DNA from: Haladaptatus caseinilyticus
GTDB lineage: Archaea > Halobacteriota > Halobacteria > Halobacteriales > Haladaptataceae
Assembly: GCF_026248685.1 (NCBI RefSeq)
Contig: NZ_CP111037.1
Span: 124,001-188,000 of the forward strand
Reading direction: 5' to 3'
DNA: 64,000 nt
Shown: piece after piece, positions 50,705 to 60,736 of the stretch
Numbering within the stretch: position 1 is the first letter of the stretch
Layout: every line of letters starts with the position of its first letter
Made by a program: the position numbers and the translations under genes
The notes under the pieces: model-generated
What the model saw: only the letters and a program-made list of their open reading frames with translations
Database searches by the model: none
What the model was told of the DNA's origin: nothing

Positions 50705-51556
50705 CTATCGGATCCGCGTCGCTAGCACGTCGATTTGATGGGCGATGTACGTGAGTTCTCCCCGTTCGACCTGTCGCGTACGCGTTCGAAACCACTCCGC
50801 GAACGCGTCCGAGTCGATGTCGCGGTCGTTACCGACCACCGACGCCACGGTTTCCAGAATGTAATTCAGAAACGTGGCTTCGTCCGCAGGATACGAACCA
50901 TCCCGTGGATACACCACCCAGTCAGAACTTCCTGCGGCGAGTATCTCTGCTTCGTGGCCCGGGAGGTCGGCCAGCAATCGACGTCCTGCGTCGCTGAACC
51001 CCCTTCCCCCTCCCATGTTTCGATGATACAGCCGCTCGACCTGTTCGTCCAGTGGATTCGGCGGATGAAAAAACGACCCTCCGTCGAAGGTGATCGGAAA
51101 GTAACACACGCCGCCGGGCGCGAGTGCCGAAAGAAATGCGGGAAGTGCGGTCTCGAGGTCGAACAGGTCCACGACCGCATGCCCGATGAGTGCGTCCCAC
51201 TGCTCGTCGGTCTTTTCCACGAATTCCACGGCGTCCGCGACTTCGAACGTCACCCCCAGCTGGTGATTGCCGTCGTCGAGTCGCAAAGTCTCATCTTCGG
51301 GTTCGAATCCGTAGGCGACCAATCGCTCACGAGCAGTTGCGACGTTCTCCGGATCTATATCGAGGACTGTGTACTGCACCCGTTTCGGAAGACGCTTCCA
51401 CGAGACGAGTCGCTCGAGCATCGCACCAGTTCCACCACCAATTTCGAGGATTCGAATTCCGTCCGAAAGCTCACACTCGAACTGACCGAGTACGCGGCGA
51501 TTCAACGCCCTATCGTCCACCGTCCGTTTCGCGTCGAGATACTGTTGGAACGTCAT
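50705..51556 (-). CDS. Class I SAM-dependent methyltransferase (operon end)
   Basis: A 283-residue methyltransferase. Motif I is ILEIGGGTGAML (about 36-47), followed by the acidic post-I residue in VLDIDPENVA and DDGNHQL. A C-terminal insert with FDGGSFFHPPNPLDEQVERLYHR is distinctive. The ATG overlaps the GT4 stop by four bases (ATGA). It is the last gene of the pterin-glycosyl operon. The methyl acceptor is probably the product of that operon; that is inference. Confidence 0.88.
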   Translation of the reverse strand: MTFQQYLDAKRTVDDRALNRRVLGQFECELSDGIRILEIGGGTGAMLERLVSWKRLPKRVQYTVLDIDPENVATARERLVAYGFEPEDETLRLDDGNHQLGVTFEVADAVEFVEKTDEQWDALIGHAVVDLFDLETALPAFLSALAPGGVCYFPITFDGGSFFHPPNPLDEQVERLYHRNMGGGRGFSDAGRRLLADLPGHEAEILAAGSSDWVVYPRDGSYPADEATFLNYILETVASVVGNDRDIDSDAFAEWFRTRTRQVERGELTYIAHQIDVLATRIR

Positions 51557-52629
51557 GGTTTCGTGGAAATCGGTTCGTGTTCGATGACGGTATCGAGCAA
51601 TCGCTCGACCGCGTCCGTCGCGTCGTCCCATCCCGTTTGCGCGTCGTATCGGTCCCGTGCTGCCGTGCTCATTCGTCCGAGTTCGTCCCTGTCGTCCCGC
51701 ACCGTTCGAACCGCTTCGGAGATCGCGCTGGGGTCCGCCGGTGGAAGCAAAAACCCGTTTTCGCCATCGGTGACGATTTCGCTCGCGCCGCCCGCCGTCG
51801 TCGCGATGGCAGGAAGCGAGAACGCCATTCCTTCGAGGTAGACGAGACCGAATCCCTCGTACAGCGACGGAACGGTCAGCACGTGGCTTCGAGCGAGATG
51901 CCCGGCAACAGCCTCGTCGGGAAGTCTCCCCGTGAACGAGACGTTCCTGCGGAGACCGAGGTCGTCACGAAGGCGACGCATTCGGTTTGCATACTCCTTG
52001 TCCGTCGATGACCCGATAACCGTGAGATGCCAGTCTCCGGACACCGACGAAAGCCCGTTGAGCAGAACGTGCAGTCCTTTTCTGGGAACGAGATTACCGA
52101 GGAAGACGAGATGGAGGGTTCCATCGAACGTCCGACGAACCGGTGGCAATGGTTCGAACCGGTCACCTGCCGGGTACGCGACCGTCGTCGGTAAATAGTT
52201 CGAATCGTTGGAATCGAGCAGGTCGAGGACGGACCGTCGCGTCGTCTCGCTGTTACAAATCGCACCATCGAGAGTCAGGAAGTAGTTGCGCTCGACCCGC
52301 CGATAGCCACGGTTTTTCCACCCCGCTCGCGGTTCGTCCGACCGAAGGTGATGAACAACGGAAACGACCGGCACGTCGAGACCGTGGTTCAGCCAGATCA
52401 GCGATGGATGACAGAGGTGGTCCTCCATGAGGACGTCGAACCCCGAGAGTCGCGATCGGAGTCGGGACGAGAGATTATGTAGGAGACAGCGACCGTACGA
52501 CTGCCACGGGATAGTGATGACCTGTACGGTATGCCCTCGCTCACGGAGGGTTTCGACCAGTTTTCGGTCGTATCGAAACCCCCCCGAACGCTCCGAAAGC
52601 GACCCGTAGACGACGAATCCGAGACGCAT
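51553..52629 (-). CDS. Glycosyltransferase family 4 of the pterin-like operon
   Basis: A 358-residue GT-B enzyme. The N-terminal loop is YGSLSERSGGFRYDRKLVE, and the C-terminal half has LVFLGNLVPRKGL, TVIGSSTDKEY, SFTGRLPDE and EGFGLVYLEGMAFSLPAIATT (E-x7-E). It starts at the ATG that shares one base with the stop of the pterin-synthase homologue. Its co-translation with pterin-synthase and methyltransferase genes suggests that it glycosylates their product rather than a polysaccharide. Confidence 0.92.
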   Translation of the reverse strand: MRLGFVVYGSLSERSGGFRYDRKLVETLRERGHTVQVITIPWQSYGRCLLHNLSSRLRSRLSGFDVLMEDHLCHPSLIWLNHGLDVPVVSVVHHLRSDEPRAGWKNRGYRRVERNYFLTLDGAICNSETTRRSVLDLLDSNDSNYLPTTVAYPAGDRFEPLPPVRRTFDGTLHLVFLGNLVPRKGLHVLLNGLSSVSGDWHLTVIGSSTDKEYANRMRRLRDDLGLRRNVSFTGRLPDEAVAGHLARSHVLTVPSLYEGFGLVYLEGMAFSLPAIATTAGGASEIVTDGENGFLLPPADPSAISEAVRTVRDDRDELGRMSTAARDRYDAQTGWDDATDAVERLLDTVIEHEPISTKP

Positions 52630-53006
52630 CACACTGGCCGTTCGAAACGAGCGTATGCATCGTCGTCTTCCCACAGTGTGACCCCGATTTCCGTGACTTC
52701 CGGGGTATCGATATCGCCGAGCACACGTTCACAAAACGATCGGGCGAAACGCTCGACACTGGGGTTTCGTCCTTCGAACTCCGGCAGGTCGTTCAACGTT
52801 TCGTCCTCGTACCGGCTAATCGCCCCGTTCATCGACTGACGAACGGCGTCGATATCCACGAGATAGCCGAACTCGTCCAGCGAGTCGCCACGGAGATGGA
52901 TTTCCGCCTTGTAGCGATGGGAGTGGTGGTCCCCTTCCTGACCGGGGTTCGGGACTGTCAAATAATGCTGTGCGACGAACGTCTTTGAAACGGTTACTTC
53001 GTACAT
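52629..53006 (-). CDS. 6-pyruvoyl-tetrahydropterin / 6-carboxytetrahydropterin synthase homologue
   Basis: A 125-residue T-fold enzyme of usual length. The zinc ligands are His14, His28 and His30 (HHSHRY). The position four residues before the HxH motif, normally the catalytic Cys of QueD-type enzymes, is Glu24. This Glu substitution is a feature of the PTPS-III group, which can make 6-hydroxymethyl-dihydropterin (family knowledge, from memory). Substrate is probably 7,8-dihydroneopterin triphosphate or a relative. It is three bases after the MDR gene and overlaps the GT4 start. Confidence 0.9.
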   Translation of the reverse strand: MYEVTVSKTFVAQHYLTVPNPGQEGDHHSHRYKAEIHLRGDSLDEFGYLVDIDAVRQSMNGAISRYEDETLNDLPEFEGRNPSVERFARSFCERVLGDIDTPEVTEIGVTLWEDDDAYARFERPV

Positions 53007-53009
53007 TGG

Positions 53010-54047
53010 TTAGTCGTATGTCAGGAGTACACCCACCGCCTCGTCCGGCCGTTCGTCCAACAGCTGGTACGCTTCGTGGGCGTCTTCAATGGGAATTCGA
53101 TGCGAAACGAGGGAACTGGAATTGAGATGTTCGAGTCGTTGCCAGGCGACGGTGATCCTGCGTTCGGTATCCCACCGCCCTCGCAGCTCTGGGTCGAGCG
53201 TACTCACCTGCGTGCTTTCTATGTTGATACGGCTCCGATGAAACGACCCACCCAGATTCAACTCGGCACGCTTCTCACCATACCACGACCCGACTAGCAA
53301 CCGCCCATCGTATCCCGTCACCGCCACTGCATCGTCCAGCGCTGCGGGATTGCCGGAGAGTTCGTAGGTCAAATCCGACCCGTTCGGCGTTCCCATTTGG
53401 GAAAGGACGGTTTCGATTTCTTCGCGCACGTTACCGCTCGCGTCGAGACAGCAATCCGCACCCATTTCCCTGGCGAGTTCGCGTCGCTTGGCGTAGCAGT
53501 CGAGCGTCACGAGGTTCGCGAGCGGGCAGTCCGCAAGGAGGGCAGTCGTTACCAATCCGACGAGACCCTGACCGAAGACGACCGCCTGTTCACCGATTTT
53601 CGGTGCGCCATCGAGGACGAAGTTCACCGCCGTCTCGACGGTCGGTAAGAGGACGGCGTCCGCCGGTGAGATCCCACCCGGTATCCGGATGAGATCCGTC
53701 GGCGACGCGAGGAAGCGACTGGTATGTGGATGAAACGCGAACACTGACTCGCCCATCCACTCGTGCGAAACGTTTTCACCGATTGCCACCACGGTTCCAG
53801 CCGTTGCGTAGCCGTATTTGAGCGGGAACTCGAGCGTTTCTGAAAGCGCGCTAATCGTTTCGTCAGCTGCCAATTCTGTCGGAGCGTCGCCCCGATACAC
53901 GAGGAGTTCGGTACCCGGACTGACCGCCGAAACCTCCGTTCGAACGAGCACTTCGTCCTGTCCCGGTTCGGAAACCCCTTCCACGCGAATGTCGAGTTCG
54001 CGTGCCCCCGTGAAGTAAACCGATCGTGCGGATGGCACATATGTCAT
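53010..54047 (-). CDS. Medium-chain dehydrogenase/reductase (zinc-type alcohol dehydrogenase superfamily)
   Basis: A 345-residue MDR protein. The catalytic domain holds RTEVSAVSPGTELLVYRGD and GYATAGTVVAIG; the nucleotide-binding motif is VFGQGLVGLVTTALL. The usual zinc-binding GHE segment is replaced by GYA, and the four-Cys structural loop is absent, so the enzyme may be zinc-independent, as in BchC-like relatives. The ATG at 54047 follows the stop of the ParB-like gene by 28 bases. A role in reducing or oxidising a side chain of the operon's product is inferred. Confidence 0.85.
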   Translation of the reverse strand: MTYVPSARSVYFTGARELDIRVEGVSEPGQDEVLVRTEVSAVSPGTELLVYRGDAPTELAADETISALSETLEFPLKYGYATAGTVVAIGENVSHEWMGESVFAFHPHTSRFLASPTDLIRIPGGISPADAVLLPTVETAVNFVLDGAPKIGEQAVVFGQGLVGLVTTALLADCPLANLVTLDCYAKRRELAREMGADCCLDASGNVREEIETVLSQMGTPNGSDLTYELSGNPAALDDAVAVTGYDGRLLVGSWYGEKRAELNLGGSFHRSRINIESTQVSTLDPELRGRWDTERRITVAWQRLEHLNSSSLVSHRIPIEDAHEAYQLLDERPDEAVGVLLTYD

Positions 54048-54075
54048 GCAACGGATTTGAACAAATCCCTTTCGG

Positions 54076-54669
54076 CTACCACGTTCGGCCACGACGTCGC
54101 CGAACGAGGTCGCACACTGACTCTCGAATGGATTCCAGTAGCGATTTCGAAGGAACGCCAAGATATGCACGTACTGTGTCGTAGGAACCTAATTCTAGCA
54201 TCCGAAGCGCCCGCGCAGTCGCTCGATAGTTACCGTCCGCAACGCGTGGCGGCAAGCAGTCACGATGGTCGATCAAGACGAGTGGGTCATCGGATGGGTT
54301 TTCGGAAAATGCCCGCACGCGACGTACATCGACTCCCGTCTCTGATTCCAGTATGGCAATATCACCCGCTGAAATACGTCTTGCCGCACCCAGAATCGTA
54401 TCGTCCGGAGAGAGCGCTCGCCACGACAGCGTTTCCGGTCCGTCGATAACTCGTAGCCCCTCGAACGCATCTCGGGAGAGCGTTAGCCGTCGCCATTCGA
54501 TAGGTGCCTTCCGCCAAACGAACGACGCGGCACCTGGCTTCGCATTCAACAGTTCGTCGAGCGCTTCTTGTTCCGAGAGGGAACTGACGTCCATTGTCGG
54601 GACGTCCGGCTTTTGGACTTCGAGTTCGAGCCACCGTTTGAGGACGTATTCCTGTGACACACGAGTCAT
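54076..54669 (-). CDS. ParB/sulfiredoxin-like protein of the pterin-like operon
   Basis: A 197-residue protein. The C-terminal half contains DPLVLIDHRDCLPPRVADGNYRATARALRMLELG, cited here as RVADGNYRATARAL, which matches the DGxHR-type motif of ParB/Srx-like ATP- or CTP-using folds. The N-terminal half (SFVWRKAPIEWRRLTLSRD) is not recognised. Small enzymes of this type can act as kinases, phosphatases or nucleotidases on small molecules. The ATG overlaps the 31-residue ORF stop by four bases. Confidence 0.65.
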   Translation of the reverse strand: MTRVSQEYVLKRWLELEVQKPDVPTMDVSSLSEQEALDELLNAKPGAASFVWRKAPIEWRRLTLSRDAFEGLRVIDGPETLSWRALSPDDTILGAARRISAGDIAILESETGVDVRRVRAFSENPSDDPLVLIDHRDCLPPRVADGNYRATARALRMLELGSYDTVRAYLGVPSKSLLESIRESVCDLVRRRRGRTW

Positions 54670-54761
54670 CTTCTCGTCAGTTCGACTCCGGAGAACTCGA
54701 ATTGGGAGCCCCCACCCATCGCTTCATAAAGCGGACTATCCGTGGGAGACGTATCGCTCAT
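54666..54761 (-). CDS. 31-residue leading microprotein of the pterin-like operon
   Basis: The frame starts MSDTSPTDSPLYEAMGGG and ends FSGVELTRR. It is coupled to the ParB-like gene through an ATGA overlap. The N-terminus is polar and disordered; the rest has a Gly-rich turn and a short amphipathic strand. It may be a small binding partner, a substrate peptide or a leader. A peptide substrate is worth testing because the operon contains modifying enzymes. Start context resembles that of the DUF1616 gene at 50457. Confidence 0.55.
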   Translation of the reverse strand: MSDTSPTDSPLYEAMGGGSQFEFSGVELTRR

Positions 54762-59464: not shown

Positions 59465-60736
59465 CTAATCGCGGTTCGGGTTTGGAAGCGAACGAAGCGA
59501 ACGAGGTGGCACCAAAAAGTTCCCCCGGCGCTCTACGGTCATGTACTGCAAAATACCGTTGTTCACGCGCTGACCGACGGAGGAGTTCCCGGCGAGATCC
59601 TCACCGTTCATCGACTCGCGCGTCCGCTCGAAATCCGCGATAGTACGCTGAACGGCGACGAAGTGAAGCCCTGCCTCACCGCCGTCAGTCGAATCGAAAT
59701 CACGGCGAAGAATGACGGGGGAATCGTCTTTTCGTGCCCCGGCGGATTTCTGGGAATGACCAACCATCCCGCGTTTTCGGGCGTGTTCCTCGACTTCGCC
59801 GATACAGTCGTCACCCATCCCGCTCGAATCGCCGAGGTTGTCGCCCGCTCCCTCGACGCGGCCCTCCTCGGCGTGAACTGGACAGAACATCTTGGCGACG
59901 CGCTGGTCGCGACTGTCCTGTTCGTACCACTGGTCCAAATGCAGGCTGATGTTGGAGACGTGCTGTGTCGTCCCCCCGGCGAACGGGCCGTCCTGAATCG
60001 TTACGCTGTCCTCGCTGGCCTGGTTCTTCTTGAACCCGGATTTGAACCCCATGTACAGTGGCGATTCCTTCGGAACAGGGTTCGAGTCGGGGATCCCGTT
60101 CACGTCCTGATGGTCGGCGGGGAGGCCGTCGCCGACGAATCCGGTGCGACGGTCGGCTTTGTTGAACACGGCTGAGAGTCCAGTTACGTCCACGCCGTTC
60201 AACTCGTTGCGGTTTCCGAGCAGGGCTTCTTCCGCCGCAAGCACGAGTTGCGCGTGGTCGCTGGCGAGGTGGACGACGGCGTCCTGTTTGTCGAGTTTCG
60301 GGTCCTCGAAGGACGCGAGGGACTTCGGTTTCGGCAGTACGTTGTCGGCACCGAACCGGGTGAAGTACGACGGGGAATAACCGACCGAGAAGAGCAGTCC
60401 GTCGTGACTTCGTCTGTACGCGCGTTCGAGACTCTTGAATGCCGATTCTGTCGTTTCGCGCTCCGATTGAGTCGGTGTCGCATTGCTCGCGCCGGCGTAG
60501 TTCAGGAAGAGGAGCACCTGGTGCCGGGGAGCAACGTCGTTGCCGTGTTCGTCGTTCTTCAGGAACCGATTCCACGCGTGCTGGCGCTCGGGAAGCGTCG
60601 AGAGGTCGTTCGGCCCTTTCGGAACGTCGGGCATGCCACCTCTGTCGAGGCAGGCCGACAGCGCCGCAGACCCGCCGATGGCGACGGCGGCTTTCATGAA
60701 CTCCCGTCGAGGAATTCCACGCGTCGAATCGCTCAT
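59465..60736 (-). CDS. Tat-exported DyP-like lipoprotein lacking the distal Asp
   Basis: A 423-residue protein. The Tat signal has Arg10-Arg11 and lipobox Cys29 (LSAC). The rest resembles dye-decolourising peroxidases: early APRHQVLLFLNYAGASN, LFSVGYSPSYF, the C-terminal SPVILRRDFDS and GLHFVAVQRTIADFE. The likely proximal haem ligand is His318 (EEHARKRG). The GxxDG motif appears as GFKSG (230-234), with Ser where the catalytic Asp normally sits, so peroxidase activity may be lost. A haem-binding, iron-release or electron role is possible. Promoter repeat copy 2 lies upstream. Confidence 0.8.
   Translation of the reverse strand: MSDSTRGIPRREFMKAAVAIGGSAALSACLDRGGMPDVPKGPNDLSTLPERQHAWNRFLKNDEHGNDVAPRHQVLLFLNYAGASNATPTQSERETTESAFKSLERAYRRSHDGLLFSVGYSPSYFTRFGADNVLPKPKSLASFEDPKLDKQDAVVHLASDHAQLVLAAEEALLGNRNELNGVDVTGLSAVFNKADRRTGFVGDGLPADHQDVNGIPDSNPVPKESPLYMGFKSGFKKNQASEDSVTIQDGPFAGGTTQHVSNISLHLDQWYEQDSRDQRVAKMFCPVHAEEGRVEGAGDNLGDSSGMGDDCIGEVEEHARKRGMVGHSQKSAGARKDDSPVILRRDFDSTDGGEAGLHFVAVQRTIADFERTRESMNGEDLAGNSSVGQRVNNGILQYMTVERRGNFLVPPRSLRSLPNPNRD

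Follow-up and report, generated by a model that had tools for sequence, protein, structure and literature searches.

The window, a stretch of 64,000 nucleotides from Haladaptatus caseinilyticus, contains an operon of five genes, X197-MDR-PTPS-GT4-MT. The last four of these, MDR-PTPS-GT4-MT, probably constitute the core of a conserved pathway (we assign this reading a probability of roughly 60%) whose product would be a molecule built from a GTP-derived aminopyrimidine or pterin and carrying a sugar and a methyl group. The comparisons reported here directly establish the conservation and order of the genes, the family assignments, the residue patterns of the active sites and the recurrent neighbours. 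The gene set is kept in hundreds of bacterial genomes and in over half of the sampled haloarchaea.

Gene content of the operon

The coordinates of the operon and the tight coupling on the minus strand, as described in the initial annotation, are correct (Table 1). The count of six genes, however, has to be reduced to five, because the 31-codon ORF at the upstream end is a scar. The family calls for PTPS, MDR, GT4 and MT are borne out by Pfam domains: the PTPS homologue, a T-fold protein, matches PF01242 at 6.7e-25, whilst MDR is assigned to ADH_zinc_N, GT4 to Glycos_transf_1, and MT to the class I methyltransferases.

Table 1. Features of the operon region in the window, with the junction of each to the following feature.
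Feature	Position	Strand	Junction to next	Assignment and characteristics
31-codon ORF	54666..54761	-	4-base overlap	Scar of a sensor histidine kinase gene that has lost its interior; no working gene of the operon
X197	54076..54669	-	gap of 28 bases	Without Pfam name; weak ParB/sulfiredoxin-like fold; invariant DGNxRA; lineage-restricted accessory gene
MDR dehydrogenase	53010..54047	-	gap of 3 bases	BchC/polyol-dehydrogenase-like; Rossmann GxGxxG; no canonical catalytic Zn Cys
PTPS-IV/SCO6650-like T-fold protein	52629..53006	-	1-base overlap	His14/His28/His30 kept; Glu24 at QueD Cys position; Glu113 invariant
GT4 glycosyltransferase	51553..52629	-	4-base overlap	Pfam Glycos_transf_1
Class I SAM-dependent methyltransferase (MT)	50705..51556	-		Pfam

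The first codons of the 31-residue ORF encode MSATS, in agreement with the start of an 894-aa histidine kinase of a congener, and its tail GGSQFEFSGVEL corresponds to the kinase end GGTRFEFTGVEL. In the congener, the intact kinase gene (L033:4762-7446; response-regulator, PAS, HisKA and HATPase domains) is located directly upstream of X197 and is bordered on its other side by the same phosphoribosyltransferase gene as in the window. The window DNA aligns to the flank and the first codons of the kinase; a gap of approximately 2.6 kb separates this alignment from a second one, which covers the last kinase codons and X197. Judged from these alignments, the ORF is an in-place deletion scar of a large PAS histidine kinase and not an independent gene; its match to both ends of the intact kinase refutes its former listing as a member of the operon. 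The remnant overlaps the start codon of X197.

X197 matched no Pfam or NCBIfam family, and its sequence profile had no genuine match in the PDB. The motif DGNxRA is invariant, and a DGxHR-type motif is present. Its structure model, a confident one (pLDDT 88), matches mostly ParB/sulfiredoxin-type folds, yet weakly, with all E > 0.001; a free serine kinase is among these matches. The name ParB-like, given initially, is thus plausible at the fold level only, and judged from the model X197 may not be a partition protein but an enzyme of the ParB/Srx fold that binds nucleotides. The gene is present in 37 of 292 genomes of the class and, as a comparison with the PTPS search revealed, lies within 5 kb of PTPS in most of the best-matching genomes. 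It is a lineage-restricted accessory of the operon. The family carries the motifs NPGAAxFxW and ADGNHRA and frequently adjoins GTP cyclohydrolase (GCH) III.

With regard to the remaining enzymes, MDR has the Rossmann domain in common with BchC and with sorbitol/threonine-type dehydrogenases, but the canonical catalytic zinc cysteine is missing; the BchC model matches over its full length, but with a sub-threshold score far below the family cut-offs. A GT4-conflict Pfam match to GT4 is weaker than the generic glycosyltransferase matches. PADLOC reported a generic methyltransferase-domain match (mad2) for MT and nothing else, and for this reason no defence assignment was made.

Distribution in haloarchaea and bacteria

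An ortholog of PTPS was identified in 171 of the 292 genomes of the class. Of 39 haloarchaeal loci, 34 have MDR close to PTPS, and the five genomes without this arrangement keep MDR at another place; MT is near PTPS in about as many of these loci as MDR, and GT4 in about two thirds of them. None of 43 haloarchaeal genomes has MDR without PTPS or the reverse (28 contain both, 15 neither); these genomes are related and therefore do not represent 43 independent events. Chance adjacency was rejected on the basis of the 34 linked loci and the 43 concordant profiles. A haloarchaeal sub-variant has no GT4 between PTPS and MT and instead shows a fusion of a Gfo/Idh/MocA oxidoreductase with an aldo/keto reductase nearby. 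This fusion, found for instance at L063:13586-15604, recurs in the GT4-less form.

The four genes stand in the same order in annotated records of Methylosinus trichosporium, Neorhizobium and Streptomyces fungicidicus, and across Alpha- and Betaproteobacteria, Streptomyces and other archaea. Between the window and those three bacteria, identities amount to approximately 32-33% for MDR, 23-25% for PTPS, 25-30% for GT4 and 21-25% for MT. In a scan of species genomes, the bacterial PTPS had at least 551 relatives, and the neighbour counts rest on 80 kept loci among these. GT4 is found in 79 of the 80, MDR in 70 and MT in 69; an MdoH-like membrane GT2 (67 loci), RibD_C (45) and RibA (31) follow. 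Cytochrome b561, named from its sequence and not by family search, is also frequent. The related bacterial grouping that had been mentioned in the initial annotation thus exists, and given the 34 linked haloarchaeal loci and the gene order common to both domains, the homologues form a conserved unit and are not scattered.

The bacterial sequences fall together on one side of the MDR tree and of the PTPS tree, with full support, and hence give no sign of a recent transfer into the window's genome. Other Halobacteriota carry RibA-MDR-PTPS-GT4 or pairs of MDR and PTPS. Literature searches by gene names revealed neither the cluster nor any product; within the literature searched, the earlier statement that no haloarchaeal pathway of this form is described holds for the product.

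The T-fold protein

The best PDB match of the T-fold profile is SCO6650 (3D7J), a PTPS homologue of Streptomyces coelicolor, which ranks ahead of QueD and is matched over the full length (5.9e-15). It is also the nearest fold (TM 0.83) of the structure model (pLDDT 91). SCO6650 is 24% identical to the haloarchaeal protein, whose third His and Glu24 are both replaced by Ala in SCO6650.

Active-site residues were compared in 129 sequences, 46 archaeal and 83 bacterial. His14, His28 and Glu113 are invariant in all 129, and His30 and Glu24, the latter at the position of the catalytic Cys of QueD, occur in 46 of 46 archaeal members. The bacterial members have Ala30 in 83 of 83 cases and Ala24 in 82 of 83. 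Consequently, the three histidines of a putative zinc site are kept in the archaeal proteins, and the third is missing from the bacterial ones; a zinc-dependent step shared by every member is therefore excluded.

The subfamily PTPS-IV of COG0720 has been described as AGeNNT cluster 62, with the signature FGPAQ and the neighbours PF00925 and PF01872 (PMC5445326). These neighbours, GTP cyclohydrolase II and RibD_C, also occur in the bacterial loci of our study, and FGPAQ is present in 80 of the 83 bacterial T-fold members. Haloarchaeal members have GPE at the same place, and three of five members from other archaea have FGPE. Of the two forms, haloarchaeal GPExxxHSH and bacterial FGPAQxxHGA, only the former keeps the three-His site. 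The window operon reveals the MDR-PTPS-GT4-MT order of the PTPS-IV operon family, but not its FGPAQ signature, and haloarchaeal operons are linked to GCH III, whereas bacterial ones are linked to GCH II. The bacterial group is previously known as a family; the haloarchaeal form is a new variant.

Recurrent neighbours, alternatives and proposed pathway

Recurrent neighbours of the cluster encode GTP cyclohydrolase II or III, RibD_C (counted in bacterial loci only), creatininase and CDP-alcohol phosphatidyltransferase. GCH III adjoins the cluster in 15 haloarchaeal loci. Eight of these genomes have a second copy elsewhere, which suggests that the linked enzyme is dedicated; in the other seven the linked gene is the sole copy and must also serve riboflavin and F420. 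The window's genome has a single GCH III, distant on contig 1, and no cyclohydrolase in the operon, so that the entry step proposed for this genome rests on its relatives. Among the bacterial cluster genomes tested, nine of ten contain two or three GCH II genes. Two archaeal loci, L163 and L167, have RibA next to MDR-PTPS. As GCH III is the enzyme normally used by archaea, the GCH II gene inside the cluster at L163:8016-9206, in a genome without GCH III, is unusual.

Both GCH II and GCH III open GTP to ribosylaminopyrimidine phosphates. With regard to the pterin- or deazapurine-derived glycoconjugate envisaged in the initial annotation, the linked cyclohydrolases make GTP-derived chemistry likely, whereas the identity as pterin or deazapurine is uncertain: GCH II and III yield aminopyrimidines rather than dihydroneopterin, none of the clusters contains a recognisable deazapurine gene (QueE or QueC), and the catalytic Cys and His of QueD/PTPS are missing from the synthase.

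It appears unlikely that the genes form a pathway for a cell-surface glycan or lipid head group, with a T-fold protein that has been taken over for work on sugars and whose descent from pterin enzymes no longer matters. This reading draws on GT4, whose nearest structures include mannosyl- and inositol-phosphate transferases, on the MdoH-like GT2 of the bacterial loci, and on the CDP-alcohol phosphatidyltransferase, which was identified in 21 haloarchaeal loci, has a homologue in Streptomyces, and was not found in the window's genome by a search run without a positive control. The fact that genes for GTP cyclohydrolase II or III and RibD_C repeatedly adjoin the cluster argues against such a pathway, as does the conservation of the pterin-anchoring Glu. 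About as unlikely is a modified riboflavin or lumazine derivative, made by ordinary riboflavin enzymes (cyclohydrolase, RibD_C, creatininase) from a flavin intermediate that the core decorates. The RibA and RibD_C neighbours are consistent with it, and the creatininase family includes FAPy formamidases that serve riboflavin in Sinorhizobium and Brucella (PMC9478397); however, the recurrent neighbours included no gene recognisable as lumazine synthase or riboflavin synthase, and flavin synthesis does not include a pterin-type T-fold enzyme.

A second QueD or PTPS-III for archaeosine or folate synthesis, as membership in the PTPS superfamily might indicate, is highly improbable. The other PTPS of the genome is a dedicated QueD with the motif CxxxHGH, flanked elsewhere by QueE and QueC (both named from sequence), which speaks against the objection, raised at the outset, that the synthase might serve archaeosine alone. 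The operon protein has the fold and three His positions in common with QueD/PTPS-I, but the catalytic Cys is replaced by Glu, the catalytic Asp-His region is altered, and the gene does not adjoin QueE/QueC. It contains neither CxxxHGH nor the folate motif ExxHGH of PTPS-III, its Glu being four instead of three residues before the first His (ExxxHSH); both roles were rejected. A branch of coenzyme F420, suggested by unpublished work on PTPS-IV cited in PMC5041015 and by the fact that haloarchaea make F420, with an F420 ligase in the window's genome, is just as improbable and was rejected, since F420 ligase was not found in any of ten cluster-bearing bacterial genomes, which contradicts such a role in bacteria and means that it cannot be general.

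For the glycosylated and methylated derivative of an aminopyrimidine or pterin, we infer the substrate from the neighbours, along with the order of steps and the product. Ring opening of GTP, by GCH III in haloarchaea and by GCH II in bacteria and other archaea, would give a formylamino- or diamino-ribosylaminopyrimidine phosphate; in the window's genome, this role would fall to the single GCH III elsewhere on contig 1. Where a formyl group has to be removed, a creatininase-family amidohydrolase would do so, and the ribosyl chain may be reduced by a RibD_C-type enzyme. The 2-amino-4-oxo heterocycle would next be held by the invariant Glu113 of the T-fold protein, which would isomerise or trim the side chain, in archaea with the help of zinc. 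MDR would then oxidise or reduce a side-chain hydroxyl, GT4 would add a sugar, and MT a methyl group.

That the product is a membrane-associated redox cofactor or signalling molecule on a GTP-derived pyrimidine or pterin, common to haloarchaea, Alpha- and Betaproteobacteria and Actinobacteria, is a long shot; the neighbouring CDP-alcohol phosphatidyltransferase, membrane GT2 and cytochrome b561 would tether it to the membrane. As the haloarchaeal copies show, the T-fold protein can retain the histidines of its metal site, and GTP cyclohydrolase III can act as its supplier. This confines the likely substrate to GTP derivatives whose ring has been opened. Archaeal operons are thereby clean settings for finding the product. 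Outside the operon, the window encodes a DUF7405 protein at 59465-60736 with a C-terminal match to Dyp-type peroxidases.
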